Virus record (IMG/VR): IMGVR_UViG_3300037069_003604
Span: 1-23,055 of that record
Source: a virus
DNA: 23,055 nucleotides
Direction: 5' to 3' (one strand)
Part shown: positions 3,131 through 19,974 of the stretch, piece by piece
How positions within the stretch are numbered: the first letter of the stretch is position 1
Layout of the letters: each line of letters starts with the position of its first letter
Made by a program: the position numbers and the translations under genes
Notes under the pieces: generated by a model
Seen by the model: only the letters and a program-made list of their open reading frames with translations
The model's database searches: none
Told to the model about the DNA's origin: nothing

Positions 3131-3894
3131 TCTGCACCTTTTTCAGTAAATGCTATTTCAGAAAGAATATCACCATTTTGAACAGGGGAAGATTTATATT
3201 CGTCTAATTGGTTTTGAATTTCAGAGGCATCATTTCCAGTTTCCAATGCTTGTGATCCAGTCAATCCGGCTTGCGTAGCTGAAGTCACAAATAAAGCGGC
3301 TGTTAGAGGCGGACTAGGCGGACCCGGCGCAGCTGTGGGATGTGTATGGGTAGATACATTTGTAGAAATTGTCTGAACTTCTGTTGCGAGATCATTGACT
3401 TGACCTGCTAAGGTATTTAAATCGCCTGAAAGTTGTGCAAGCTGAGTTAATACATTTTCAAGTAAAGTTTGTAATTGAGTGCCTAAAACGAGAGGCTCGC
3501 TAGGCTCGATATTAGGTCTGCCTATTCCTACTTTGGTATCAGATCCAATGTAGTTTTTCATTCCAGCTCTGGAATAAACAACCTTATCGCCTTGTTGAGC
3601 AAATTTTGGAATAGGCTCATCTTTATTATTTACAAGTCTAAGAACATAACATTCATCGGGATGACCATCAATAAAAGCAACTATTGCTAGATCATCGATC
3701 TCAGGAAATTCAACGTCCATGACATCTGAAAATGTCATCTGCGCTACAACCTGTCTGTTCTCAGGGAGCAGATTCACCATAACTCTGAGCTTACTTCCAT
3801 CATTAGCAAGCCCAAGTTTAACGATAGTTCCTACCCCAATATGCAATCGAGTATCTTTGAAAATATCTCTCAGTCCTTCAAGATCATACATCAT
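3127..3894 (-). CDS. Baseplate central spike / puncturing protein (gpV / gp138-like)
   Basis: A 255-aa protein with an N-terminal OB-like beta-barrel (about residues 15-95, GVGTIVKLGLANDGSKLRV...), a central strand-rich region, and a heptad-like stretch (about 140-180: LQTLLENVLTQLAQL, LNTLAGQVNDLATEV) that probably forms a trimeric coiled coil. A His-x-His motif (H183-T-H185-P) followed by a proline-rich PGPPSPP is reminiscent of the metal-binding HxH spike-tip motif of P2 gpV and phi92 gp138. Here about 70 residues follow the motif instead of it being C-terminal. The gene sits between hub and gp25-like protein, the expected place for the membrane-piercing spike. AGGAG precedes the ATG at 3894; a second ATG follows at once. 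Confidence 0.82.
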   Translation of the reverse strand: MMYDLEGLRDIFKDTRLHIGVGTIVKLGLANDGSKLRVMVNLLPENRQVVAQMTFSDVMDVEFPEIDDLAIVAFIDGHPDECYVLRLVNNKDEPIPKFAQQGDKVVYSRAGMKNYIGSDTKVGIGRPNIEPSEPLVLGTQLQTLLENVLTQLAQLSGDLNTLAGQVNDLATEVQTISTNVSTHTHPTAAPGPPSPPLTAALFVTSATQAGLTGSQALETGNDASEIQNQLDEYKSSPVQNGDILSEIAFTEKGAE

Positions 3895-5432
3895 GAAAGA
3901 CTCCTAAACGTAGTATCGATAATATTCTGGAAATCCACTGAAAGCTTCCACCCAGAAGTGTCGTTAATACTCATTCTGTAGCTTTTTATTTGAAACCTTG
4001 GAGAGAATTTGCCCATAGTTTCAGCGAATACTGAGGCTACTTTAGAATCATAATTTCTTTGAATTAAATATTCTACCCTGGCCGGATAACTCGATAATCT
4101 TGAAATTTCACCCAAATCATCCGTATTAATTTCAAGGCAGATCGTTTGACCTTTTCTGATTTGCGTAAGATCGTAATTTTTATAAGAAATGGTTTGATCA
4201 CCGTTGGTATCTCGTGTTGTTCCTCTTCCTAACATTTCAAAGGTATCAAAAGAACCTTCCAGTTGTTGCAGAGAATATTGTTCATAAAGGGTCTGTCCAA
4301 TTTTAACTAACGCATCTAAATCAGCCACGTCATGAACGGGAAACGTGATATATGGAGCCGGTGCTTTGACTGCAGAAGTATCTATTGATCCATCGGGTTT
4401 TAATACGGGAATACTAATCGGTGCAAAATTTGTAGATTCACCGTTCGCTGTTGTTCCGCTCTCTTGTTGAAAACCAAAAGCAGTCCCCCAAGCAACTGTT
4501 GCTTGCTCAGGAATTCTAGCGATCAATACCTGCTTATCGATTCGGCATCTTACCTGAAGATTAAATCCTTTGAACCTTCCCAATTTTCTTTTGAGCTTTA
4601 AATTCTTTACATTGACACCATAGATAATTTTAATGTCATCCTTGGTTTCAGAATTGAGAGGTATAAACTGATTTTTTGGATTGGCTAGAATAATAGTAGG
4701 GACTAATTGCCCATTTTTAATAGATCTACTGAAGTAACAAATTAATCCTGCCCTATGGCAGATGTCTTGGATAATTTCCCAGTAAGTTTCGTGTTGACCT
4801 GGATTTTTAGATCCAGTGAGAGGATCATTAAAATCTGGATAATATTGAGCAAGCGTTGGCAATGTTTCAGGCTGAAAAGTAACTGGGTCGATGGTTTGAT
4901 TGAGAACAGCCACTTGTGAAACTGCTGGAATTTGAGAGAGTAATGTTTGAATTGCCTCATCAATAGGTAAGTTCAAAGATATTGGGGTATTATTAATATA
5001 CTTTTGGTCGATTAATAATGCAGTAGTGTCCCTTCCACTGAGTTTTACCATCCGGTTTGTGTCATCAAATTCAATTTCTTCTTCATCTGCAAAACCAATA
5101 AATACGGCATTTGAAATTGTTGGATCAACTACAGTGGAAGCACCGGGAATAATTTTATTAAAAGTCCCATCGCTATTATAGAGCTTGCCCATGTCTTGAA
5201 AGTAAATGACTACTCCGCATGATCTGATACTCCTTGGATCAAATGGAAAATTCTTATAATCAATTTCCATGTTAAAAGTATCAGTTGTTTTATAATCATT
5301 CACTTGAATCGTGATATCTTTTGCTTGGACTAGAATTCTTTGGATGTTACTTAAATCAACATTACTGGAAAGTTTAAAATCTTCCGGTAAAATTCGAAGC
5401 TCAACTGCAGACTGCGGAAACCAGTAAGAAAT
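3891..5432 (-). CDS. Baseplate hub protein (GpD / gp27 / XkdQ-like) with probable ATT start
   Basis: Hub protein of about 513 aa with the beta-barrel pattern of late-control GpD/gp27-like proteins: ISGRDTT-type motif VKLSGRDTTALLID, then INLPIDEAI-like repeats, and a C-terminal region with KIGQTLYEQYSLQQLEGSF and YSLQQ. It should form the trimeric ring linking the tube to the spike encoded next (overlap 3891-3894). The first conventional start is GTG 5303, which has no SD and lies inside an apparent strand. The frame stays open upstream for 43 more codons (SYWFPQSAVELRIL, FKLSSNVDLSNIQRILVQA), reaching ATT at 5432. A GGAGGG SD lies 7 nt before that ATT. I therefore place the start there. The ATT directly follows the TAA of the LysM gene in the same frame, so readthrough is an alternative. 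Confidence 0.82.
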   Translation of the reverse strand: MSYWFPQSAVELRILPEDFKLSSNVDLSNIQRILVQAKDITIQVNDYKTTDTFNMEIDYKNFPFDPRSIRSCGVVIYFQDMGKLYNSDGTFNKIIPGASTVVDPTISNAVFIGFADEEEIEFDDTNRMVKLSGRDTTALLIDQKYINNTPISLNLPIDEAIQTLLSQIPAVSQVAVLNQTIDPVTFQPETLPTLAQYYPDFNDPLTGSKNPGQHETYWEIIQDICHRAGLICYFSRSIKNGQLVPTIILANPKNQFIPLNSETKDDIKIIYGVNVKNLKLKRKLGRFKGFNLQVRCRIDKQVLIARIPEQATVAWGTAFGFQQESGTTANGESTNFAPISIPVLKPDGSIDTSAVKAPAPYITFPVHDVADLDALVKIGQTLYEQYSLQQLEGSFDTFEMLGRGTTRDTNGDQTISYKNYDLTQIRKGQTICLEINTDDLGEISRLSSYPARVEYLIQRNYDSKVASVFAETMGKFSPRFQIKSYRMSINDTSGWKLSVDFQNIIDTTFRSLS

Positions 5433-6668
5433 TTAGCTACCCTCCAGATTTGGGATTTCAAGAATTTTACCAGGAACTAATAAAGATGATTGCAAATGAT
5501 TATGGTCATAAATATCAGTCCAATGGGAAGAAGTTTTGTAAAACTTAATACTAATATTCTGAAGTGTATCTCCGGTTTGTACCCTATACCTTGCGATAGG
5601 AACAGTTTTAGCCAACGCTTCAAACATAGTTTTCATTTGAGCTAAATATGAAGAAAGTTGACTAGTCGCGCTCATAGTCTCATGAGAATACGAAATGTTT
5701 TGAAATGTAGATGTAGCAAGAGATGCTGGACCAGGAGTCTGTAAGCCTGAAAAGAAATTTGCTGCAGTAAATTGAGGATTATCTTTACTAAATCCACTAA
5801 ATGAATTGGAGAGCTTATTAAATTTCCTATTAAATATGGAAATTTGAGATCTTGCATTAGCAATCAGGCCTAATGCTCTCTGGGCGCTATTAGCGATATC
5901 CTGTCCTGTGGCAAGAGTAGTGGAAACGAAATGAGTCACTAAATTTACATTTTTGGCCACAGAGCTGATCAGTCCATTCATCACCCCTGCAATGCTTTGA
6001 GGTACAGTAGACGGAACTGTTCCATAATTCTGTGCGAATGTTTGAGCAGAATTGATTAAATTTTGATTAATAGAACTTGGGGATTGCTTTTCAGGTGCAG
6101 CAAAATAGTTATTGATAGGCTGCTTTTCGCTCACTACGAAAAATTCAAGCTCATAGTCTATCCAAGAAAGTTTATTCATCTTGAAATCAACTTTCTCTAA
6201 AAATCCGAATCTGAACCAATTATCAGTGGTTCCATGCATCCCAAACTTAAGCAGATTCCCTCTTTTTCTTACTTCATCGCACGCTTTGCTCATTTGGTAA
6301 GAAACACCATAGTAAGACGGGTCTTTATATCTCTTATCCTTAAATCTACCTTTAATAACTAAAGGCCCTTCCTTGGGCCCAAGTACTTGCACTGCAGGTT
6401 CTGGATTTCCTGCATAATATTCTTTTGCAAGTCGTTGTTCCCCACTCCATGGGAAAGGTTGCATGGGCATCATATTGCCAACTAACCTGATAATCGTGTC
6501 AAAATTTGGGACACCCTTGATATATTCAATGATCTGAAACCCACCTGTGAAATCGTTGGGTCTTAAACCTCCATTAGGAACCGTGGTGCTAAATGGATTT
6601 TTAATGAGGGCTGCAATTGGGTCTATAACAGAACTTGCTACAGATGCACTTTGATCAAGAATGCTCAT
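5433..6668 (-). CDS. LysM-containing baseplate protein (gp53 / XkdP-like)
   Basis: A 411-aa protein with a C-terminal LysM domain (about residues 360-405: YRVQTGDTLQNISIKFYK ... LLVPGKILEIPN). The N-terminal domain (about 40-185) contains FQIIEYIKGVPNFDTIIRLVG and ends with a strand region (DNWFRFGFLEKVDFKMN, IDYELEFFVVSEKQP), resembling XkdP/gp53-like baseplate and DNA-circularisation-type proteins. A helical, low-complexity linker (about 200-345) joins them. Such proteins sit between tape measure and hub and connect the wedge to the hub; the LysM may instead be a purely structural module. GGGGG lies 4 nt before the ATG. The chain ends naturally four residues after the LysM, but the following hub frame is in phase with only the TAA between. 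Confidence 0.85.
   Translation of the reverse strand: MSILDQSASVASSVIDPIAALIKNPFSTTVPNGGLRPNDFTGGFQIIEYIKGVPNFDTIIRLVGNMMPMQPFPWSGEQRLAKEYYAGNPEPAVQVLGPKEGPLVIKGRFKDKRYKDPSYYGVSYQMSKACDEVRKRGNLLKFGMHGTTDNWFRFGFLEKVDFKMNKLSWIDYELEFFVVSEKQPINNYFAAPEKQSPSSINQNLINSAQTFAQNYGTVPSTVPQSIAGVMNGLISSVAKNVNLVTHFVSTTLATGQDIANSAQRALGLIANARSQISIFNRKFNKLSNSFSGFSKDNPQFTAANFFSGLQTPGPASLATSTFQNISYSHETMSATSQLSSYLAQMKTMFEALAKTVPIARYRVQTGDTLQNISIKFYKTSSHWTDIYDHNHLQSSLLVPGKILEIPNLEGS
5440..5445 (-). promoter_or_regulatory. Ribosome binding site deciding the hub ATT start
   Basis: GGAGGG on the minus strand, 7 nt upstream of ATT 5432-5430. No ATG, GTG or TTG exists at that spacing in any frame. It is embedded in the last codons of the LysM gene (CTG GAG GGT AGC TAA ATT), so initiation would be coupled to termination of that gene. 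Confidence 0.65.
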
Positions 6669-8482
6669 CTGGCCCCCGCAAAGTTAGGAGTGCTAAACCC
6701 ACTGTTTGTCGATTGTCCGCGGCCTTGAGTCGGATTGATTGCAAGCTTTTTGAGATGGGTTGTGACAGCAAATGCTACTCGGTCAGGTTCAAGCTGTTCT
6801 CTCATATCAAACCTAGCTTCGATCTTTCCAACGTTTGTCACCTGATTCACAACTGCTTTAGTAGGGTCTGCTTTCAAATGTTTACCCATGAAATCATCAA
6901 ATTCTTCTTTAAAATTCTTTGTAAAATTTGTCAGAGGATTTTGTAGCTTCATTAAATCATCCACAAATCCAAAAACTGCATAACTGAATCCAGACCATAT
7001 TGCCGTAAGAGTCACAACAGCCGTACCAATCATATCAAAAAGATTGGCAAGGCCTTCAATGAGAGGAAGAAGGATTTGAACATAATTAGAAGTTTCAAAA
7101 AGTGGAGCAAGAAGTCTTGCGAAAAAATCGATTGTCATATTAATGGGAAGCATAATCTTCTCGAATGCTTCTTTCAGCTTAATCATGACGGCCATAATTC
7201 TTGGACTCATCGTTAACATATTTTGGATATCTGCAACTTTTGCAATCGCTCTAGCTCTAGAGATAATCTGAAAGACTCCTAATAAAATTAAAAAAGGAGC
7301 TAATACGTCAGCAACCATTATTCTAAAAAGACTAAATAATTTACTAAATACATTAAATCGCATCATTAAACCAAATAATTCGATGCTCAGAGTTTTAGTG
7401 AATCTAAGAAGATTAACGATAGCTCGATTTAATAAACCTCCACCGAATGTAATCCCTAACTTGTAAAGTCCAAAACTAATCAGCGAAATCCATGGAGCCC
7501 ATTCAGCAGCTTTCTTAAAGTCTTTTCCTAAAGTCCTTAATTGAATAATTCCAATGAGAAGCGCTTTTGGATCGGAGATGATATTCCCGATCAGCATTCC
7601 GATATGATCTCCGATAGCCTTACCATTGGTAGCCAGATAGTCATTGATAGCTCTGAATACCTTAATAACTGGTTTAATAATTGCTTCACCAATGGGTTTT
7701 AAAACACGTTCAATTTGATTTTTTAGGATTGTAAACTGAACTCCCAAATGATTTAATCTCGCATCCAAATATTCCGCATTGCCGCCTAATGTCTCAAGAG
7801 CCCTGGTTAAAAGATCAATTTTCTTATCCTGATTCATATTTGCAAGCTGTTGAGGATGCATGATGTGTTTTTCGCGAAATTCAGGGGTTTGAATTAAGCG
7901 TTCAAAAAGCTTTCCGCCGACGGCTTGACCTGGACTTAAAGCTCTGGCTAATTGCTCTGCTCCTGCATGTTGAGGTAAGCCGACAGACTCAGAAGCCATC
8001 ATCATGTTACGAGCAAGTTTAATCCCACCTTGATAATTAGTTCCCAATTTTTGCCTTGCAGCCAATGGAGAAGCCACCAATTGGGTGATATCTGCCAAAG
8101 CACCGCGATCTAATCCAAACTTAATAGAAGTATCTGAAATATCCTCTAGAATGGTCTGAGAGGTTTCTAAACGTTCATTAAAGCTTTTTACATGGCCTGC
8201 AAGAACTTGAATGTTTGAACTGATATTATTAGCGAAATCTAGGGCAGAGTGATTAAATTCTTCAGAAATCTGGACGGATCGCGTCAATATAGTGAGCAAT
8301 CCGCCCGATCCAAAACCGAGATGGGCTACTAAGCCCGAAGCGAGATAATTCAAACTACCGAGAGCAGAACCAGCAGATTTAGATAATCCATCAACCGAGT
8401 CTTGAAGAGATTTCGTATTAATTAGAGCCTGGCCGACATCAAACTTAAATTCAGCCGCGACTGCGAAAGCTTCTTCAATCAT
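6665..8482 (-). CDS. Tail tape measure protein
   Basis: A 605-aa, largely helical protein after the chaperone and before the baseplate genes, the diagnostic place for the tape measure. The N-terminus (MIEEAFAVAAEFKFDVGQAL) and helix-rich first 280 residues are typical. The middle has several long apolar segments (about residues 285-315, 330-355, 385-410 and 455-495), as in tape measures that insert into the host membrane during ejection. The usual relation of about 0.15 nm per residue would give a tail near 90 nm (inference). The start ATG overlaps the stop of the frameshifted T frame (ATGA at 8482-8479) and has GGGAG about 9 nt upstream. The stop overlaps the start of the LysM gene. Confidence 0.93.
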   Translation of the reverse strand: MIEEAFAVAAEFKFDVGQALINTKSLQDSVDGLSKSAGSALGSLNYLASGLVAHLGFGSGGLLTILTRSVQISEEFNHSALDFANNISSNIQVLAGHVKSFNERLETSQTILEDISDTSIKFGLDRGALADITQLVASPLAARQKLGTNYQGGIKLARNMMMASESVGLPQHAGAEQLARALSPGQAVGGKLFERLIQTPEFREKHIMHPQQLANMNQDKKIDLLTRALETLGGNAEYLDARLNHLGVQFTILKNQIERVLKPIGEAIIKPVIKVFRAINDYLATNGKAIGDHIGMLIGNIISDPKALLIGIIQLRTLGKDFKKAAEWAPWISLISFGLYKLGITFGGGLLNRAIVNLLRFTKTLSIELFGLMMRFNVFSKLFSLFRIMVADVLAPFLILLGVFQIISRARAIAKVADIQNMLTMSPRIMAVMIKLKEAFEKIMLPINMTIDFFARLLAPLFETSNYVQILLPLIEGLANLFDMIGTAVVTLTAIWSGFSYAVFGFVDDLMKLQNPLTNFTKNFKEEFDDFMGKHLKADPTKAVVNQVTNVGKIEARFDMREQLEPDRVAFAVTTHLKKLAINPTQGRGQSTNSGFSTPNFAGAR

Positions 8483-8978
8483 GTATCTTTTCTCCCGGAT
8501 TCCGCTTCAATGATCTCTAACAGTTTATTTGAAAAGATATCAAATTGCCATGGTTCCCATTCATCCACCATTTCGGGTGTGACGCATGTGTATCTAGCAA
8601 TCCAAGCTTTTCTCTCCCAGAGAGTTCGAGCGCGATCAGAAATTATCCTCCTGAAACCAGCTCGATTTGGGGCTCCTTTCCCGCATCATCCCCCCCTGCT
8701 AATTTACCTACAACCTTTAAAAGCTGGGTATATTCGCCCATGCTTAAAATAGAATCTAAATCTTCACGCTCAAGTGCATTCAAAGCTTTGCCATCAATTG
8801 ATACCAACAATGACTGAAGTAAAGCTTTCTGCATCATTACTTGCATCAAAGAGCTATCCCCATCCGCTCTTTTTGCCACCTGCTGAGCTGCATTCTCTGT
8901 ATCTGAAATTTTCATCACTCTGAGTAGAACAACCTTTTGAGTCGATAAAGTTACTTTAACAACGTTTATTTTCGCCAT
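8479..8978 (-). CDS. Tail assembly chaperone GT fusion by programmed -1 frameshift
   Basis: Joined product: frame of the G gene from 8978 to 8676 (101 codons), then -1 frame from 8676 to 8479 (65 residues plus TGA), 166 aa in total. The extension starts GAPNRAGFRR and continues with IISDRARTLWERKAWIARY, then PEMVDEWEPWQFDIFSNKL and LEIIEAE, a Trp-rich helical sequence. It has no conventional start upstream of MVDEWEP. It fills an otherwise empty gap of about 160 nt and ends in an ATGA overlap with the tape measure start. The -1 frame is closed by TGA at 8688-8686, so the shift must occur between there and the G stop; the GGGAAAG heptamer lies exactly in that interval and in X XXY YYZ phase. 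The lambda G/GT system uses the same heptamer. Confidence 0.85.
8643..8978 (-). CDS. Tail assembly chaperone, unshifted product (G-type)
   Basis: A 111-aa product starting MAKINVVKVTLSTQKVVLLR, followed by KISDTENAAQQVAKRADGD, a helical core, and GEYTQLLKVVGKLAGGDDAGK. This resembles G-type tail assembly chaperones that coat the tape measure during tube polymerisation. I chose ATG 8978 (AGGAG about 10 nt upstream) over the ATG at 9041, which would add 21 residues of non-conserved leader with no SD. The gene lies between tube and tape measure, the canonical slot for G/GT. Near its 3' end a GGGAAAG heptamer allows a -1 shift into the downstream T frame. Without the shift, translation ends at TAA 8645-8643 after ELVSGG. 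Confidence 0.88.
   Translation of the reverse strand: MAKINVVKVTLSTQKVVLLRVMKISDTENAAQQVAKRADGDSSLMQVMMQKALLQSLLVSIDGKALNALEREDLDSILSMGEYTQLLKVVGKLAGGDDAGKEPQIELVSGG
8676..8682 (-). other. Slippery heptamer GGGAAAG for -1 frameshift
   Basis: In the chaperone reading frame the bases read gcG GGA AAG, that is X XXY YYZ, the ideal phase for simultaneous P- and A-site slippage to GGG AAA. It matches the heptamer known from lambda gpG/gpGT. A G7 run (8690-8696) ends 7 nt upstream and could pair with the anti-SD as a stimulator. A TCGAGC/GCTCGA stem (8665-8660 with 8631-8626) starts 10 nt downstream, but its 28-nt loop makes it a weak candidate. Confidence 0.82.
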
Positions 8979-9061: not shown

Positions 9062-9487
9062 TTAAAGCGCTTTGCGCCCAGAGCATTGGAACTCAATTCG
9101 TTTGGTCATCTTTGCTTGAAGACCTTCCTGTTTTCTGCTCATCTTGAATTGCATGTCATAATAGACATAACTTTGAGTTGTACCATCGGTGTAATATTCA
9201 GTAGTCACCATGGTGTAATCTTCAACTCCAATTCCATTGAGATTATTCGTAACCAAGGCATCAATGAAAACATCAACCTCTGCATTTTTTACTTCTGCAT
9301 CGACAGAACCAGACCATCCCTCAATTGCCTGATCCCCTTCAGGTTCAGGAGCGCCAACATACATAGCGCGCATGAAAGTTGAATCTTGGTTAATGTCAAC
9401 CGAAGTTAAATTAGCAAAACCGACTTGAGTGCCATTTCCAAAAAACTTGATTTGTCCCTGGTGGCCTCTTATTGAAGCATTAGCCAT
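9062..9487 (-). CDS. Tail tube protein
   Basis: A 141-aa protein immediately after the sheath, as in XkdK/XkdM and P2 FI/FII order. The sequence reads as the beta-barrel of contractile tail tubes: GHQGQIKFFGNGTQVGFANL, then TSVDINQDSTFMRAMYVGAP, a mid-chain region EGWSGSVDAEVKNAEVDVF, and a C-terminal strand pair ending KRIEFQCSGRKAL. It stacks as hexameric rings inside the sheath. AAGGGGG lies about 5 nt before the ATG. A GC-rich inverted repeat covers the last codons (9067-9077). Confidence 0.9.
   Translation of the reverse strand: MANASIRGHQGQIKFFGNGTQVGFANLTSVDINQDSTFMRAMYVGAPEPEGDQAIEGWSGSVDAEVKNAEVDVFIDALVTNNLNGIGVEDYTMVTTEYYTDGTTQSYVYYDMQFKMSRKQEGLQAKMTKRIEFQCSGRKAL
9067..9077 (-). 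terminator. Small GC hairpin at tube gene end (possible attenuator)
   Basis: GCGC-AAA-GCGC on the minus strand ends 2 nt before the TAA stop and is followed by TTTAAAG. It is short for an intrinsic terminator but lies where expression should drop between the abundant tube protein and the low-level chaperone. Confidence 0.3.
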
Positions 9488-9497
9488 CTTATCCCCC

Positions 9498-10952
9498 TTA
9501 TCCTGAAGCTTCGGTTACAACTACGCTTTCACCGATCTCTGTTTGAAGAACGATAAATCGCATAGAACTAAAGATTCTTCTTTTGTATAAAATCTTAAAA
9601 TATCCGGCTGCGATTGAATCATCCGTGTTTAAACTTTTGGTATCGACTAAAGATGCCTTACCAGAAGACACTTCAGCATCACTAGGCACTAAACCGCTTG
9701 TTTCAAGAAGTCTGTTGTATGAAGAAATAGCTCCTGCAACATTCCCTCGATTCAAAGCACTATTCAGTCCATTTTGAAAATTCTTTAAGTATTTAGCCAG
9801 AGATTGAATGATATAATCAGTCATTCTTCGTCGAAACACCATAATCTTAGAACTGTTAGCAATCTGAGTCACAATCCCACTTTTGATTTTGATTCCTAAA
9901 TCAGAATCTACTTCAAATGCAGAGATGCCTGCGGCATTCAAACTGATATAATCGCTTCTCTCAAGAGATTGACTTAAGGATTCAATTCCACCGAAATATT
10001 GAGCATTACCGGCAAAAGCAGGGTCAATATTTGGAGCCATTTGAGATAAAGCAGCGGCGTAGAAGCTTGCTAAGCTAACTAGCGTACTGACACCAGCGAT
10101 TGAAGTATATCCATAGGGATAACAATAAATAATACGTCCATCGGTATCTCTATAACTAGCTACATCAATGATTGCGGAAGAAACACTTGCATCGCTACCA
10201 TAATCTAGCACGCACATTTTATCAGTAGTTGCTGCCATCGATGTTTTTAAATATCCATTCCTAGTTGTATTATAAGCATCTAAGAAAAGAATATTTCCTG
10301 CGCCTGAAACTTGGCTTGCATTGATTGCAGTCTGATAATCTGTATCAGCTACTGAGCCATCGCTACCGCTCGATAAGTTTGTAGCAGAGGCATTCGCGGG
10401 TTCGCTGGTATTTAAAACAACCGTTGCTGTAATTAAATTAGAATTAGCAAAAGGATTATTGTTGACACTGATAGAAGCTATCTGAACATTGTCATAAACT
10501 TCATCAGGCCATACAGCTCCTGGATTTGCATCGTGGACAATATATTTTTTACCTGCAATAGAACCTGCAGCAATAGTGATTTGGATATTATTTCCGTATG
10601 CGCCTGACCATAAAGCAGTGAAAGTGATTGCAGAAGCAGGTGTTGCATTTGGAAATGTATGAGTGGCGGCTGCAGCACTAGAAGAGACAACTCGGATCAC
10701 ATTGAGTAATCCAAACTTCTTATTCTGAAGTGCGACTAATCCGCTATAACTTAAGTTATTCCCATAACGTTCAAAAAGTTGCCCGGTAGAACCTACGGAT
10801 TGTAATCCAGGGGCTCCACGTTCAAATTGACCTACTAATATCGCGACGCCTGTAGGAACGCCTGTCACCGAAGGAGGTGGGCTTGTATCATCGATATAAA
10901 TACCATCTAACAAACCCCAATCCGTAGGGTTAGTTGAGCTATAAATAGACAT
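9498..10952 (-). CDS. Contractile tail sheath protein
   Basis: A 484-aa sheath protein. The N-terminal region GIYIDDTSPPPSVTGVPTGV, then AILVGQFERGAPGLQSVGS and FERYGN, is the standard start of phage sheath proteins (Mu gpL, XkdK type). The variable middle domain includes LWSGAYGNNIQITIAAGS and DGSVADTDYQTAI, and the C-terminal half includes YRDTDGRIIYCYPYG, FRRRMTDYIIQSLAKYLKNF and the terminal strand RFIVLQTEIGESVVV used for the handshake between subunits. Its length is normal for P2/Mu-size tails and below T4 gp18. The SD (AAAGGAC) is about 7 nt from the ATG but sits inside a small hairpin, one of three in the leader. Confidence 0.94.
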   Translation of the reverse strand: MSIYSSTNPTDWGLLDGIYIDDTSPPPSVTGVPTGVAILVGQFERGAPGLQSVGSTGQLFERYGNNLSYSGLVALQNKKFGLLNVIRVVSSSAAAATHTFPNATPASAITFTALWSGAYGNNIQITIAAGSIAGKKYIVHDANPGAVWPDEVYDNVQIASISVNNNPFANSNLITATVVLNTSEPANASATNLSSGSDGSVADTDYQTAINASQVSGAGNILFLDAYNTTRNGYLKTSMAATTDKMCVLDYGSDASVSSAIIDVASYRDTDGRIIYCYPYGYTSIAGVSTLVSLASFYAAALSQMAPNIDPAFAGNAQYFGGIESLSQSLERSDYISLNAAGISAFEVDSDLGIKIKSGIVTQIANSSKIMVFRRRMTDYIIQSLAKYLKNFQNGLNSALNRGNVAGAISSYNRLLETSGLVPSDAEVSSGKASLVDTKSLNTDDSIAAGYFKILYKRRIFSSMRFIVLQTEIGESVVVTEASG

Positions 10953-11640: not shown

Positions 11641-12085
11641 GCTTAATCTCCTGTTTGATGTTCTCGATGATCTTGGGCAGTGTGTTTTCTAAAACATGCC
11701 TAGGAACCATTCCATGCTGCTGAATCTTTTTTTGAGTAGCTCTTGCAAGCTTCCAGACTTCAGGCGAGAAATCGGGCGGCTGAGATGGATCTTGTAAAAC
11801 CCGTTTTGCCCATCTGAGAAGAGGAGCCAGGGGGGGCGTAAAAGGTCTTGTTCCATATTCAATAATGCCTGCATAAGGAGCATGATTACCAATAATGGCT
11901 TGCTTCTCATCTATTCTAAAATCCCAACTAGCGGAATATAGCCCGGTATCAACAGGAGAAGCTGCAACTAAATCTGAAATACTTTTTTGAAGCCCTCGAC
12001 TAACGGCTTTTCTGACTTCTTTTTGGGATCTCCCATAAAAGTTTCCAAGCTCTTTGCTAAGCTGATCGAGGTCAATCGTCTTCAA
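11633..12085 (-). CDS. HK97 gp10-like head-tail / minor tail protein
   Basis: A 150-aa protein with the HK97 gp10 family pattern: an N-terminal helix (LSKELGNFYGRSQKEVRKAV), the conserved SPVDTGLYSASWDFRID, the turn NHAPYAGIIEYGTRPFTPP, and a C-terminal helix. The family joins or completes the tail near the neck. The start is TTG 12085, preceded 6 nt upstream by GAGG and overlapping the TGA of the previous gene (TTGA). An ATG alternative within the first residues is absent. A coding-strand C7 run (11830-11836) encodes Pro-Pro in FTPPLAP. Confidence 0.85.
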   Translation of the reverse strand: MKTIDLDQLSKELGNFYGRSQKEVRKAVSRGLQKSISDLVAASPVDTGLYSASWDFRIDEKQAIIGNHAPYAGIIEYGTRPFTPPLAPLLRWAKRVLQDPSQPPDFSPEVWKLARATQKKIQQHGMVPRHVLENTLPKIIENIKQEIKHG

Positions 12086-12603
12086 ATAATCCTCAAAGCT
12101 TTCTTAGCAAAACCTAGAATTTTTTTAGAATATTCTAATCCTTTGACAGCGTATTCTGCAGCCGCCTCTCGGTTCTTTTTAAGCCCTAAAATGCCTGCTC
12201 CATAGATGGCATTTCCTACAAGGAAATTTCTAGTTTCTTGCCTTGCAAATTGTTTGGCTCGTTCTTTTTTATGACCTTTTCCTACCACGCTAGCTGCAGC
12301 TAAAGCAGTACCAGCTGCATCAATCACATGAGTCGCTGCGCTTCCTAGTGCTAATCCTCTAGGGGTAGCAAAAGTTGCCGCTCCAATGGCACCTGTGGCA
12401 GCCGATAAACCAAGAGATGCAAGATCTAATTTATGATTTACGTTAATTTTATCAGATTTTTTAAAGCCATTTTTGTGTGTAGAATATGCAGCCCCTGCAC
12501 CTGTGGCTAAGCTTGCAGCTTTGGCAATATGACCCGCACCTAAAGATGCACGAATAGGAATAATTCGGCCATTTTTTCTAATAAATCGAATTGCATCCGA
12601 CAT
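12082..12603 (-). CDS. N-terminally tagged Ala/Gly-rich basic protein (putative virion cargo)
   Basis: A 173-aa protein of no family I recognise. Residues 6-18 (RFIRKNGRIIPIR) carry the peptide shared with three other proteins here. The rest is Ala/Gly-rich with three apolar segments (about 61-80, 83-109 and 127-141), separated by Lys-rich loops such as KGHKKERAKQFARQE. It ends in a basic amphipathic helix (KKILGFAKKALRII). The composition fits a protein that inserts into or crosses membranes, like phage ejection proteins; this is inference. GAGG lies 4 nt before the ATG. It closes the accessory block just before the gp10-like gene, which it overlaps by 4 nt. Confidence 0.8.
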   Translation of the reverse strand: MSDAIRFIRKNGRIIPIRASLGAGHIAKAASLATGAGAAYSTHKNGFKKSDKINVNHKLDLASLGLSAATGAIGAATFATPRGLALGSAATHVIDAAGTALAAASVVGKGHKKERAKQFARQETRNFLVGNAIYGAGILGLKKNREAAAEYAVKGLEYSKKILGFAKKALRII

Positions 12604-12609
12604 AAAACC

Positions 12610-12825
12610 TCATGGTTTACTCGATTGAAAAAGATCTTTATCTGGCTTACCTTTATTCGTTAATTTGGCAGAATCTTTGGAGAGATTTTCGCTCGATGAA
12701 CTTTCTTGAGCAGCTTCTAATCGATTCGATTCGGAATTATTGATATCGCTAGGACCTGAACCGCCATATTGACCAACAGGGCGACGATTATAATCAACGC
12801 TTAGTTCTGTAGAAGTTTTTCCCAT
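12610..12825 (-). CDS. Small hydrophilic protein between tagged genes
   Basis: A 71-aa, Ser/Asn/Lys-rich, probably disordered protein (MGKTSTELSVDYNRRPVGQY..., then SSSSENLSKDSAKLTNKGK). I chose ATG 12825 because the G7 run just upstream can act as an SD (pairing with CCUCC using one wobble); ATG 12843 would add six residues and has no SD. It overlaps the 3' end of the preceding tagged gene by about 32 nt, and its stop is 6 nt from the next tagged gene. No family recognised. It could be a small structural or chaperone-like partner of its tagged neighbours, but nothing proves this. Confidence 0.6.
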   Translation of the reverse strand: MGKTSTELSVDYNRRPVGQYGGSGPSDINNSESNRLEAAQESSSSENLSKDSAKLTNKGKPDKDLFQSSKP

Positions 12826-13240
12826 ATCCCCCCCGATTATCATTCATTTTCTGATGCCCATAAAGAGTAGCGCCAAGAGCAGCAAGAGTATACTTGCCTT
12901 TATTCCTGGCAACATGGGCAGCACCTACCGCAGCCTTATGGTAATTATCCAAGGTGGAGGCAATCTTGGAAGCTTTCGTAGCCTGTTCCAATTGATGTTC
13001 AGCCCTTCCATGTAACTTGGCTCCCACATGAAGATACTTTCCTTCAGCCATAGCACTGAATTTATCAGCATGTTTTGAGAATGTTTCAGACTTCTTTAAG
13101 GCGATACTTGCCTTTTGAACGAAAGCACTGGCTCGTGCTCCAAGCTCCACATGAGCTGATTGCAAATTCTTTCCAGCCAGAGGAAAACGAATTGGGATAA
13201 TCCTACCCCCTTTTCGAATGAACTTGACTATGTTAGCCAT
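12794..13240 (-). CDS. N-terminally tagged helical basic protein (putative virion cargo)
   Basis: A 148-aa protein of unknown family. Residues 6-18 (KFIRKGGRIIPIR) match the shared tag; the 11-residue core is identical to that of the NlpC/P60-like neighbour although 8 of 33 bases differ, all silently. The body is a long, Ala/Lys/His-rich helical region (AGKNLQSAHVELGARASAF, QKASIALKKSETFSKHADK), ending in a short apolar stretch (KYTLAALGATLYG) and a basic Gly/Tyr-rich tail (GGYGKNFYRTKR). GAGGG lies 5 nt before the ATG. It starts 8 nt inside the end of the preceding gene, so the two are translationally coupled. Confidence 0.82.
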   Translation of the reverse strand: MANIVKFIRKGGRIIPIRFPLAGKNLQSAHVELGARASAFVQKASIALKKSETFSKHADKFSAMAEGKYLHVGAKLHGRAEHQLEQATKASKIASTLDNYHKAAVGAAHVARNKGKYTLAALGATLYGHQKMNDNRGGYGKNFYRTKR

Positions 13241-14168
13241 TCCCGCCCTCTTTCTTTTTCAATATTTTATGAGCAAGATAAGAAATACCCGCTGCGGCAG
13301 CTCCCCATTTTAAGCCTCTTCCAATAATTGCCACATAGGTTTTTGCAGAAGTCCCTGCAGCTTTTACAATATTCCGTTTAGCAACCTGCTCAATACCTTT
13401 TGCTTTCCTGAATTCTCCAGCAAAAGTATGCTCCCCTAATTTACTAAATTCTCTTCCAGCATAAGCCCTGATAGGTAAAGTATGACATACCATTGGGTCA
13501 TAGCTACGATTTACTTTTTTACCAAAAGGGAAAAGGTAATTACTGACTGCATTTTTTGAATACTCTTTAAAGTTCTGATAAGGCACATGCTTTTTAGCGG
13601 CAGTCTTGGCGAATTCAATTGCGGAAGCTTTTTCAGCTTTTCCAGCGTTTTTAAACCTAAACGCTGAAACATTCTGTTGAGCCATGAAATTCTCTAAAGA
13701 GTCCGTGGTTGCTCCCACATTAGTAGTCATGTGAGATACACGGCCTTTTCCTAAGTAAACGCCACCGTGGTACTTCTTGCCTCCACCAGCAAGAGGGATG
13801 ATGGTTGCATTCGAATAGAGAAGAGAGCTTCTTTTCAGCCCAAAGAATCGAGCGGTTTTGTGCGCTTTTTTCTGCATGTGTTCTGGCAGAGAGTCAATTG
13901 CATCTCCAACGCTCAAACCTGATGCACCCTTAGCATGAGAACCTGCCGTCAAGATATCTCCAGGCTTAAGCCTCTTTTGGAAGCTTTTAACGCCCCTAGA
14001 ATTCCTAACAGCAGACTCTTTCAAGTCAGCCTTATGCTCTTGGTGCAAATGATATCCCGCTGCTACCGCAGCCCCTGACACACCGGCAGTAGTTGCGGCA
14101 GCGCGGGCTTGATCTTCATTCCGGTCATGAATCGGAATTATTCTGCCACCCTTTCGGATGAATCTCAT
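13233..14168 (-). CDS. N-terminally tagged permuted NlpC/P60 (YiiX-like) hydrolase, putative virion-borne
   Basis: A 311-aa protein. Residues 2-14 are the shared tag (RFIRKGGRIIPIH). An Ala-rich apolar segment follows (about 21-38), then a papain-like domain in permuted order: LKPGDIL (68-73), H134 in KYHGGVYLGKGRVSH (GD and H-x-G-x-Y/x-G as in YiiX/LRAT-like proteins), and a candidate nucleophile C228 in YDPMVCHTLPIRAY. Such domains cleave peptide or amide bonds in peptidoglycan, or acyl/ester bonds in lipids. A second apolar segment lies near the C-terminus (about 286-302) before a Lys-rich end. Encoded in the head-neck region, it is best read as a virion hydrolase for cell entry; that role is inferred, the domain call is by motif. 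Confidence 0.78.
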   Translation of the reverse strand: MRFIRKGGRIIPIHDRNEDQARAAATTAGVSGAAVAAGYHLHQEHKADLKESAVRNSRGVKSFQKRLKPGDILTAGSHAKGASGLSVGDAIDSLPEHMQKKAHKTARFFGLKRSSLLYSNATIIPLAGGGKKYHGGVYLGKGRVSHMTTNVGATTDSLENFMAQQNVSAFRFKNAGKAEKASAIEFAKTAAKKHVPYQNFKEYSKNAVSNYLFPFGKKVNRSYDPMVCHTLPIRAYAGREFSKLGEHTFAGEFRKAKGIEQVAKRNIVKAAGTSAKTYVAIIGRGLKWGAAAAGISYLAHKILKKKEGGNG

Positions 14169-17654: not shown

Positions 17655-18548
17655 TTATTTCATCCTGGGTGGTTTACGAGGTGCTTGAGAATTGATTGGA
17701 ATGAAGGCATCACCTTGGAGATGACCCCAATTTGGGAGATAAGGAACCATGACGCTTCTATCATTTGGGCGGTCGGGTGGAACCATATAACTTCGAATTT
17801 TGTTATCCCATGAATACTCAAATGGCTCTGAAACATCTGCAATTAAATGTAACGATGCGGCATATTCACTGTCTTTGCCTGTCCTCGCATCCATAGGATG
17901 AATTAAGGTTTTTTTGAGCCCTTCTTCTTCTTCCGACATTTCTTTAAGTCCATTGAGTTTTCCGAGATTGTACACGTGGTGGAGTTCGGTTCGGACGATT
18001 CGGGTAAGCTTCCATTCTTCTCCATTGAAGAATTGCGAGAGCGTTCCAACAATCTCTCCAGTGTTTTGAGCGCCGATTGTTGCGTTAACGAGTCCGTTCG
18101 ATATCTTCTGAAAGAGTCCTTGGCCATATGCGTCTAAATTTGTCTTATACTTGGTTAATAAGAGATTATTAGTATCCCTGGCTATAAGAGTAGCATTCAA
18201 ATCAATCGGTGTAATAGCCCCCGTAAATTCTTCGTCAAATGTTTTGATTTCAGAAGTTAGATGCTCAATGCCTTTCATGGCTGCTTTAAATGCTCCGTTA
18301 GCCATGGCACCGTTTAAATGGTCCTGAATGGCCGTAATTGCCCCCTGAACCTGTGCTAAAACACCTCGAAGGTGTTGGGCTGAAAATCTTCCAGGAGGTA
18401 GTTTAGAAAGCCTGTCCACCAGATCTTTTCTGATGTCCTGGTATGACTTCATAATTTGGATAGCTTGGTCGTTTTCGAGCGAAAGGATTTGCTTGATATG
18501 ATCTTCGACAACTCCAATAGAGTCGACGGCTTCAAAAAAATTCGGCAT
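17655..18548 (-). CDS. MuF-like minor head protein (SPP1 gp7 type)
   Basis: A 297-aa protein with a helical N-terminal two thirds and the Mu F signature near the C-terminus: RIVRTELHHVYNLGKLNGLK (183-202) followed by IHPMDARTGKDSEYA (216-230). Family members bind the portal and enter the capsid, and in some phages carry toxins; here the protein ends about 65 residues after the motif, with no extra effector domain. AGGAAAGG lies 6 nt before the ATG, which overlaps the stop of the tagged gene upstream (TAATG). Unusually, three genes separate it from the portal. Confidence 0.88.
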   Translation of the reverse strand: MPNFFEAVDSIGVVEDHIKQILSLENDQAIQIMKSYQDIRKDLVDRLSKLPPGRFSAQHLRGVLAQVQGAITAIQDHLNGAMANGAFKAAMKGIEHLTSEIKTFDEEFTGAITPIDLNATLIARDTNNLLLTKYKTNLDAYGQGLFQKISNGLVNATIGAQNTGEIVGTLSQFFNGEEWKLTRIVRTELHHVYNLGKLNGLKEMSEEEEGLKKTLIHPMDARTGKDSEYAASLHLIADVSEPFEYSWDNKIRSYMVPPDRPNDRSVMVPYLPNWGHLQGDAFIPINSQAPRKPPRMK

Positions 18549-19009
18549 TATCTGCCTTTCCTGATGGCTTTAGCGGCAATATTTACCGCATCCCTGATCG
18601 CCGTAGAAAGCGGGTAACCCACTTTTTTCAAGTGTTTTGATTCCGTGGCAAATATTCCTAAAGCAGTTGATCCAGCAGTTATTGCTACTTTAGCTTTTTC
18701 ATTATCTTTATATTTGGTTTGACTCAAAAGCTTGTTTGCTCCATACCCGATCAAACCAGAAGCTGCGACGGTTCCCAATGCTTTTACCTTGAAACCTTGC
18801 TGGGAGAGTTGCTTTGATTTCAATCGTTTTCCTCTTTTTAACGCTGAAGCTGCTTTATGTACTAGATTTGAAGATACACTTGCAGTAGTAGAACTGACAA
18901 TCAATCCAGAACCTATAGCGGCCGCCCCATTCGCTCTTTCTTGATTTGCCTCGCTCATTTTAATCGGTACTAATCTTCCATGGATTCTTCTGAAAATGAC
19001 TTGCGACAT
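18548..19009 (-). CDS. N-terminally tagged Ala/Gly-rich basic protein upstream of MuF
   Basis: A 153-aa protein of unknown family. Its start carries the divergent copy of the shared tag (FRRIHGRLVPIK, residues 6-17): F, R, G, R, P and I of the consensus are kept, and I/L/V replace one another. Three apolar Ala/Gly/Ser segments follow (about 27-45, 76-92 and 107-121) between Lys-rich loops, and the chain ends in a basic helix (AAKAIRKGR). The layout matches the tagged protein at 12082-12603. I chose ATG 19009 (GGAG 5 nt upstream) over GTG 19015. It is coupled to MuF downstream and overlaps the end of the glycosyltransferase gene if GTG is used. Confidence 0.78.
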   Translation of the reverse strand: MSQVIFRRIHGRLVPIKMSEANQERANGAAAIGSGLIVSSTTASVSSNLVHKAASALKRGKRLKSKQLSQQGFKVKALGTVAASGLIGYGANKLLSQTKYKDNEKAKVAITAGSTALGIFATESKHLKKVGYPLSTAIRDAVNIAAKAIRKGR

Positions 19010-19011
19010 AT

Positions 19012-19974
19012 TCACTCCATATCTAGCGAGTCTTCGTTTCGAGCACGCATATATTTCCTAATATCTTCCCTCAATTTAATCTGCCTAGATGTAATCACAA
19101 CGAGTTCAAGCACTCCCTGGTCATTCCTTTTTAGATCAGTATTCGGATCAAATTGATTATCAATTAAAACTCGCCACCGATCATGGTAACGCCTGTCTTT
19201 CTTTTTGCCATGCCAATGATGAATCACAGTACCCGGAACATATCCTAAATCTCGCTGAATAAACTTTTCAGCCCGCTTCTCCCACTCCAAGAGTCCCACT
19301 GCATAATTTGGATTTAAACCAGGATTCAAAGATTCTTTCATCATCCCAATAAGTCCGTAAGACATATGTCTGTCGCCCGCACCCATGATAGCGGTCTCAA
19401 TCAGCCCTCCTAAATGGTTGAAGGACTCCCTTCTCATCGCCCAACAGTAACCAGGATGAAATGAAGTATATTTATATGATTTGGATTCAAACTTACCTTC
19501 GATATATGCCCAGGCAAACCCTTCATATTTCCCAAATGTTTGACCATGAGGGCCCAGGTCTAGCGCATGTTGGAACATTTGAACTACATGATGATGTTGA
19601 AGTTGATGAACTGTTTCATGAACCCAACTTTCTCGTTCAATAGCCCAATGAGATGGTAATAAAGTAATATCTGCATCAATGAAAGCAAAATATTTCCAGT
19701 GAGGAGCAACCTCTGATAATCTTCTCACACCTAGATTAATCAGATTCTCTTTATGCCAAAGCTCGTGAGAAGTTCTTAATTGAAGATGAAAAGGATTACC
19801 GACTTCAGTTATTTCAAAATGTCGGTTTCCATAAGCTAACTCTACAACTAGAAGCTTAACACCCGCTTGATTCATTTCTTCTTGAAACTTTTTGAAGAGG
19901 CGGACCCTAGTTTTATAACGGACAGGATTGCTGATTACAGCAATGACATAAAAAGAATCGACATCAATATTCAT
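19012..19974 (-). CDS. GT-A type glycosyltransferase-like protein in head operon
   Basis: A 320-aa protein. It opens with a nucleotide-sugar-binding strand pattern (FYVIAVISNPVRYKTRVRLF), has the DxD metal site in YFAFIDADITLLP (D100, D102), a mid-chain acceptor region with YCWAMRRESFNHLGG, then GAGDRHMSYGLIG (198-210, the GGD-like catalytic motif of GT2/GT27-like enzymes), and a C-terminal HHWHG (252-256) that may complete metal binding. All the key residues expected of an active GT-A enzyme are present. The start overlaps the stop of the His-rich gene (ATGA) with AAGGTGAG upstream. It sits between portal and MuF. Glycosylating a virion protein or a host target are both possible; substrate is unknown. 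Confidence 0.78.
   Translation of the reverse strand: MNIDVDSFYVIAVISNPVRYKTRVRLFKKFQEEMNQAGVKLLVVELAYGNRHFEITEVGNPFHLQLRTSHELWHKENLINLGVRRLSEVAPHWKYFAFIDADITLLPSHWAIERESWVHETVHQLQHHHVVQMFQHALDLGPHGQTFGKYEGFAWAYIEGKFESKSYKYTSFHPGYCWAMRRESFNHLGGLIETAIMGAGDRHMSYGLIGMMKESLNPGLNPNYAVGLLEWEKRAEKFIQRDLGYVPGTVIHHWHGKKKDRRYHDRWRVLIDNQFDPNTDLKRNDQGVLELVVITSRQIKLREDIRKYMRARNEDSLDME

Follow-up and report, generated by a model that had tools for sequence, protein, structure and literature searches.

An uncultivated phage with a contractile tail very probably encodes a pair of tail assembly chaperones of the lambda gpG/gpGT type, the longer of which would be made by a -1 frameshift near the end of the G gene. 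The window, that is, the whole stretch of DNA analysed, is a complete virus record of 23,055 bases in which the tail genes lie on the minus strand. The frame relation of the two reading frames, their placement between the tail tube and tape measure genes, the conservation of T and the purifying selection acting on it, the missing start codons and the fold of G fit this type of system together. The original prediction, made from the window alone, was of a programmed -1 frameshift giving a GT chaperone, and it is supported by the frames, by a conserved signal, by selection on T and by the fold of G; the part that has to be qualified is the slippery heptamer, which is incomplete in some relatives.

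Results

The order of the tail genes, as given by the list of open reading frames and by PHROG matches, is sheath, tube, G/T and tape measure protein. The sheath gene (9498-10952, minus strand) matches PHROG tail sheath proteins (E=1.7e-17) and marks the phage as contractile-tailed. The tail tube gene (9062-9487, minus) is assigned by its position between sheath and chaperone, its profile match (phrog_12993) being to a family of unknown function, while the tape measure gene (6665-8482, minus) has PHROG tape-measure matches, the best with E=1.4e-5. Two overlapping reading frames, G and T, are flanked by the tube and tape measure genes, the arrangement expected of a lambda-type pair. Neither the sheath nor the tube of the window had a match among 50,697 deposited phage records, and a search of prokaryotic genomes with the sheath returned no relatives.

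Other features of these genomes were recorded along the way. Several minus-strand ORFs of the window (12082-12603, 12794-13240, 13233-14168 and, more weakly, 18548-19015) start with the motif [RK]FIRK.GRIIPI, also found in relatives at the N-termini of ORFs that lie upstream of the sheath (L002 at nt 3713, L003 at nt 1715 and 1962, L004 at nt 1839, L016 at nt 2213 and 2621); a common peptide for targeting or for packaging is one possibility. Between the head genes there is an ORF of 320 aa (19012-19974, minus) that has no significant Pfam or PHROG match and that, by eye, resembles a glycosyltransferase. The tail sheaths of L027 and L028 (region 4001-5842) have 613-614 aa, ca. 130 residues more than the 473-492 aa of the other relatives.

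The G gene (8643-8978, minus) runs from ATG to TAA and encodes a zero-frame product of 111 aa. Near its end, at 8682-8676 on the minus strand, there is the slippery heptamer GGGAAAG, in X_XXY_YYZ phase and read as G_GGA_AAG in the G frame, precisely as predicted to the base. The -1 frame is closed immediately 5' of it by a TGA (8688-8686, minus), and from the heptamer onwards the T frame (8682-8479, minus) comprises GK, a further 65 residues counted after the slipped Lys codon, and a TGA (8481-8479) that overlaps the tape measure ATG at 8482 as ATGA, so that the predicted length and junction were also exact. From these frames, the G-T fusion is predicted to have 166 aa (8978-8479, minus), made up of 101 residues of G, through the K, and the 65 of T. 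The heptamer by itself occurs at chance level (3 copies of GGGAAAG in the window versus 3.52 expected), and thus the case rests on its phase, placement and conservation. Across the G/T overlap there are also two antisense ORFs of 80 and 90 aa (8510-8817, plus strand), probably a by-product of coding constraint.

As the prediction had stated, ORF calling missed the T frame (it has no entry in the start-to-stop list of frames of at least 60 aa) and no usual start codon lies near its 5' end. Its first in-frame ATG, at 8571, is already inside the T domain, and initiation there would delete the first T helix. An independent start might still be imagined at the end of G, where an AGGAGG (8652-8647) just 5' of the G stop could act as ribosome binding site for a non-standard codon, and in-frame ATA and ATT codons do follow it. 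However, the spacing from AGGAGG to these codons is 0 and 3 nt, respectively, which is too short; in 35 of 40 genomes (see below) no ATG, GTG or TTG precedes the T core; and a T with its own start would need neither a slippery heptamer nor a constant -1 phase, both of which are conserved. We regard such separate translation of T as very unlikely, and favor the frameshift.

Relatives were collected in steps, the sheath query providing 5, a sheath alignment 23 loci and a tube alignment 45 loci; after removing duplicates and truncated loci, the final set had 39 non-redundant uncultivated relatives, 40 genomes with the window, with 48-80% identity to the window in the tube protein. HMMs of G (built from 20 relatives) and of T found both proteins in every locus that reaches the region (39 of 39 relatives), T being always in the -1 frame of G, with an overlap of 37-133 nt, and directly before the tape measure gene. 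Conservation of both frames had been proposed as a check. T is also conserved as a protein, with a motif common to the relatives (W..IAWICRYTSL.P..V..MTPWQF) and three residues (R30, Y31 and E61 in the numbering of the window's T) that do not vary among 20 sequences, and AlphaFold2 models it as a three-helix domain (pLDDT 84.2). In the part that encodes only T, mismatches were most frequent at third codon positions (0.45, 0.33 and 0.66 for positions 1, 2 and 3), and pN was below pS in 190 of 190 pairs, many of them saturated at synonymous sites. T is under purifying selection, and the excess of nonsynonymous change that would have spoken against the frameshift was not seen.

These data also bear on the suspicion, natural for a metagenome assembly in which one base would join the two frames, that G and T were formerly one gene, broken by a sequencing error or a disabling mutation. 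The identical -1 offset is found in 39 other contigs, down to ca. 48% tube identity and from many separate metagenomes, and the purifying selection still acting on T argues against either kind of break. Of the alternatives to a programmed frameshift weighed here we give this one the least credence, to the point of practically discarding it.

The slip sites themselves are strongly, if not universally, conserved. The 40 sites comprise GGGAAAG (13), GGGAAAC (12), CCCAAAG (4), AAAAAAG (2) and TTTTTTG (1) in heptamer form, and GTCAAAG (2), GGAAAAG (1), ACAAAAG (1), GGGGGAG (2), GGGGGAA (1) and CCCCCAG (1), which, where X_XXY_YYZ was absent, are candidates, chosen for their position and as the closest run that looked slippery. 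A heptamer of the form X_XXA_AA[AGC] is present in the G/T overlap in 31 of the 40 genomes; 1000 synonymous recodings, which redraw the codons but keep the G protein, gave 4.0 on average and never more than 10. The three heptamers that work best in E. coli (CCCAAAG, GGGAAAG and AAAAAAG; PMC4066793) are found in 19 of 40 versus 1.6 expected from recoding. Since the 40 sequences are related, they cannot be counted as so many independent trials, although they have diverged considerably. Selection acts here on an RNA signal over and above the protein. The G/T overlap of L062 (3247-3268) has two canonical heptamers, GGGAAAC and GGGAAAG, which share one phase and are separated by 15 nt.

The nature of these sites also makes it highly improbable, somewhat more so than a separate start for T, that the frame changes through transcriptional slippage on a homopolymer and not on the ribosome. 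There is a run of seven G nearby in the window (8696-8690), and runs of five bases (G or C) or six (A or T) occur in a few relatives; but the G7 run is upstream of the TGA at 8688-8686, so slippage on it would run into that stop, and neither of the most frequent sites, GGGAAAG and GGGAAAC, is a long homopolymer.

Eight of the 39 relatives have no X_XXY_YYZ heptamer in the overlap. In four of them the XXX half has been lost and only A_AAG is left (L007/L038, L010/L040, L011/L064 and L012/L061, each pair being two locus names for one contig); these are four of the seven nearest relatives of the window, and all seven together with the window form a clade of eight with 100/98 support. Well-supported branches within it force at least two independent losses of XXX, and the mixture is also seen in an earlier tree of the sheath. 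Five more distant relatives use other runs, GGGGGAG in L043 and L047, GGGGGAA in L046, CCCCCAG in L059 and, in L066, TTTTTTG only, six bases upstream of a GCAAAAG. Disrupted heptamers in relatives had been named in advance as evidence against the frameshift, and such relatives do exist, but all of them keep an open -1 T frame, and we take them as a sign that the slip site can be looser, not as evidence against frameshifting. In the four relatives with A_AAG only, T is intact and no start codon precedes the core, so that either slippage of a single tRNA or some other route would provide their T. A_AAG is recognized as a minimal -1 site, for example in IS1222 (PMC5009743), and tetramer sites in E. 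coli need a strong stimulator (PMC4066793). In these four, z-scores of the downstream fold were -2.7 (L038), -1.8 (L040), 0.6 (L064) and -1.6 (L061), and a Shine-Dalgarno-like site was detected in L007 only (P=0.01).

As for stimulators in the whole family, neither an upstream Shine-Dalgarno-like element nor a downstream hairpin could be established. The candidate in the window is a G-rich run, AGGGGGGGA (8697-8689, minus), ca. 7 nt upstream of the heptamer and with a duplex energy of -10.3 kcal/mol with the anti-Shine-Dalgarno sequence. Compared to other positions along G such runs rank high (median rank 0.05), but they are not stronger than in synonymous recodings (P=0.11 in the window, Fisher P=0.16 over 20 genomes), since the protein often has two adjacent glycines at this point. 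Similarly, a downstream hairpin that seemed to have support in a set of 20 genomes (Wilcoxon P=0.02) had over 40 genomes a mean z of -0.78, versus -0.54 at some other offsets. Rfam returned nothing above the gathering score.

The identity of G as a chaperone comes from its predicted structure. The AlphaFold2 model (pLDDT 88.9) has as best PDB fold match the HK97 tail assembly chaperone 2OB9 (TM 0.50-0.53, E 0.34), and in BFVD it matches gp181 (E 1.6e-3) and gp182 (E 3.5e-3) of Bacillus phage G, as well as named tail assembly chaperones of Rhodococcus phage Finch, Bacillus phage Gemini and Arthrobacter phage Molivia. The E-values are weak singly, but the weak scores agree with each other and with the gene order, and for this reason the model suggests that G has the tail assembly chaperone fold. 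Sequence-family profile searches with G and T gave no significant match; tail assembly chaperones have low sequence similarity to one another (PMC5009743). The matches of G to chaperone families were all sub-threshold (phrog_389, E=0.068; phrog_25875, E=0.025; Phage_TAC_7, E=0.057), none passing its curated cut-off, there were none in NCBIfam, and G used alone as a query returned no relatives. The sole PDB sequence match of the G profile, the C-terminal domain of Uup (E=0.0025), was unsupported by the fold search and is taken as chance. For T, comparison of the sequence with the named T-domain families of Pfam and PHROG and the fold search produced nothing significant, and the alignment of 20 T sequences was too diverse to serve as a search query.

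Discussion

The gpG and gpGT tail assembly chaperones of lambda are a frameshift system (PMC5009743, citing Xu, Hendrix and Duda 2004), and the system of the window resembles it in the place between tail tube and tape measure, the GGGAAAG heptamer, the -1 direction and the short T extension. Most ribosomes would terminate at the TAA of G, yielding the chaperone of 111 aa; in a minority, the tRNA-Gly on GGA and the tRNA-Lys on AAG would slip back one base, to GGG and AAA, and continue in the T frame to give the 166-aa fusion. In a lambda-type system the ratio of G to GT is fixed, GT binds both the tube and the tape measure proteins, and the virion contains neither chaperone. If lambda is a guide, the G part may coat the tape measure protein and the T part may recruit tail tube subunits, both G and G-T leaving before the tail is complete. 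That ribosomes slip here, how often they do so, and what the two parts bind is inferred.

The differences are that the phage of the window is contractile-tailed, has no significant sequence similarity to lambda in profile searches and has some relatives without the XXX half. The HK97 chaperone is the nearest solved fold to G, but with 18-20% identity. The chaperones of contractile tails, of the P2 E/Mu gp41 type (Phage_TAC_7) and the XkdN-like type of PBSX (phrog_389), share with the window the tail type and the gene position, but were matched below threshold from several members only, and T is not detectably related. IS1222, a transposase gene with the site CGA_AAG, and other A_AAG sites (PMC5009743, PMC4066793) resemble the four relatives that keep NNA_AAG, while the window has the full heptamer. 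Along similar lines, PRFect lists sites other than XXXYYYZ, e.g., GGGGGAA, in annotated chaperone genes (PMC10885494), and such G5/C5 sites are matched by L046, L043, L047 and L059 only and not by the window.

The system is an ordinary one of its kind; what is new is the lineage, which has no match in the deposited phage records searched. The known frameshift of tail chaperones is thereby extended to a lineage of uncultivated contractile-tailed phages, and a family of T domains is provided that has no significant match to any model of Pfam or PHROG. It is plausible, although we would stop a little short of calling it probable, that the P-site half of the chaperone slip site was lost at least twice in one clade of contractile-tailed phages, leaving A_AAG, and that the two-tRNA heptamer is not essential for tail assembly. 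If this is true, the G:GT ratio would be set there by single slippage of tRNA-Lys plus context. The clade of the window is a natural series, from the full heptamer through the weaker GGGAAAC to A_AAG only, in which the relation of slip-site strength to tail assembly could be tested.
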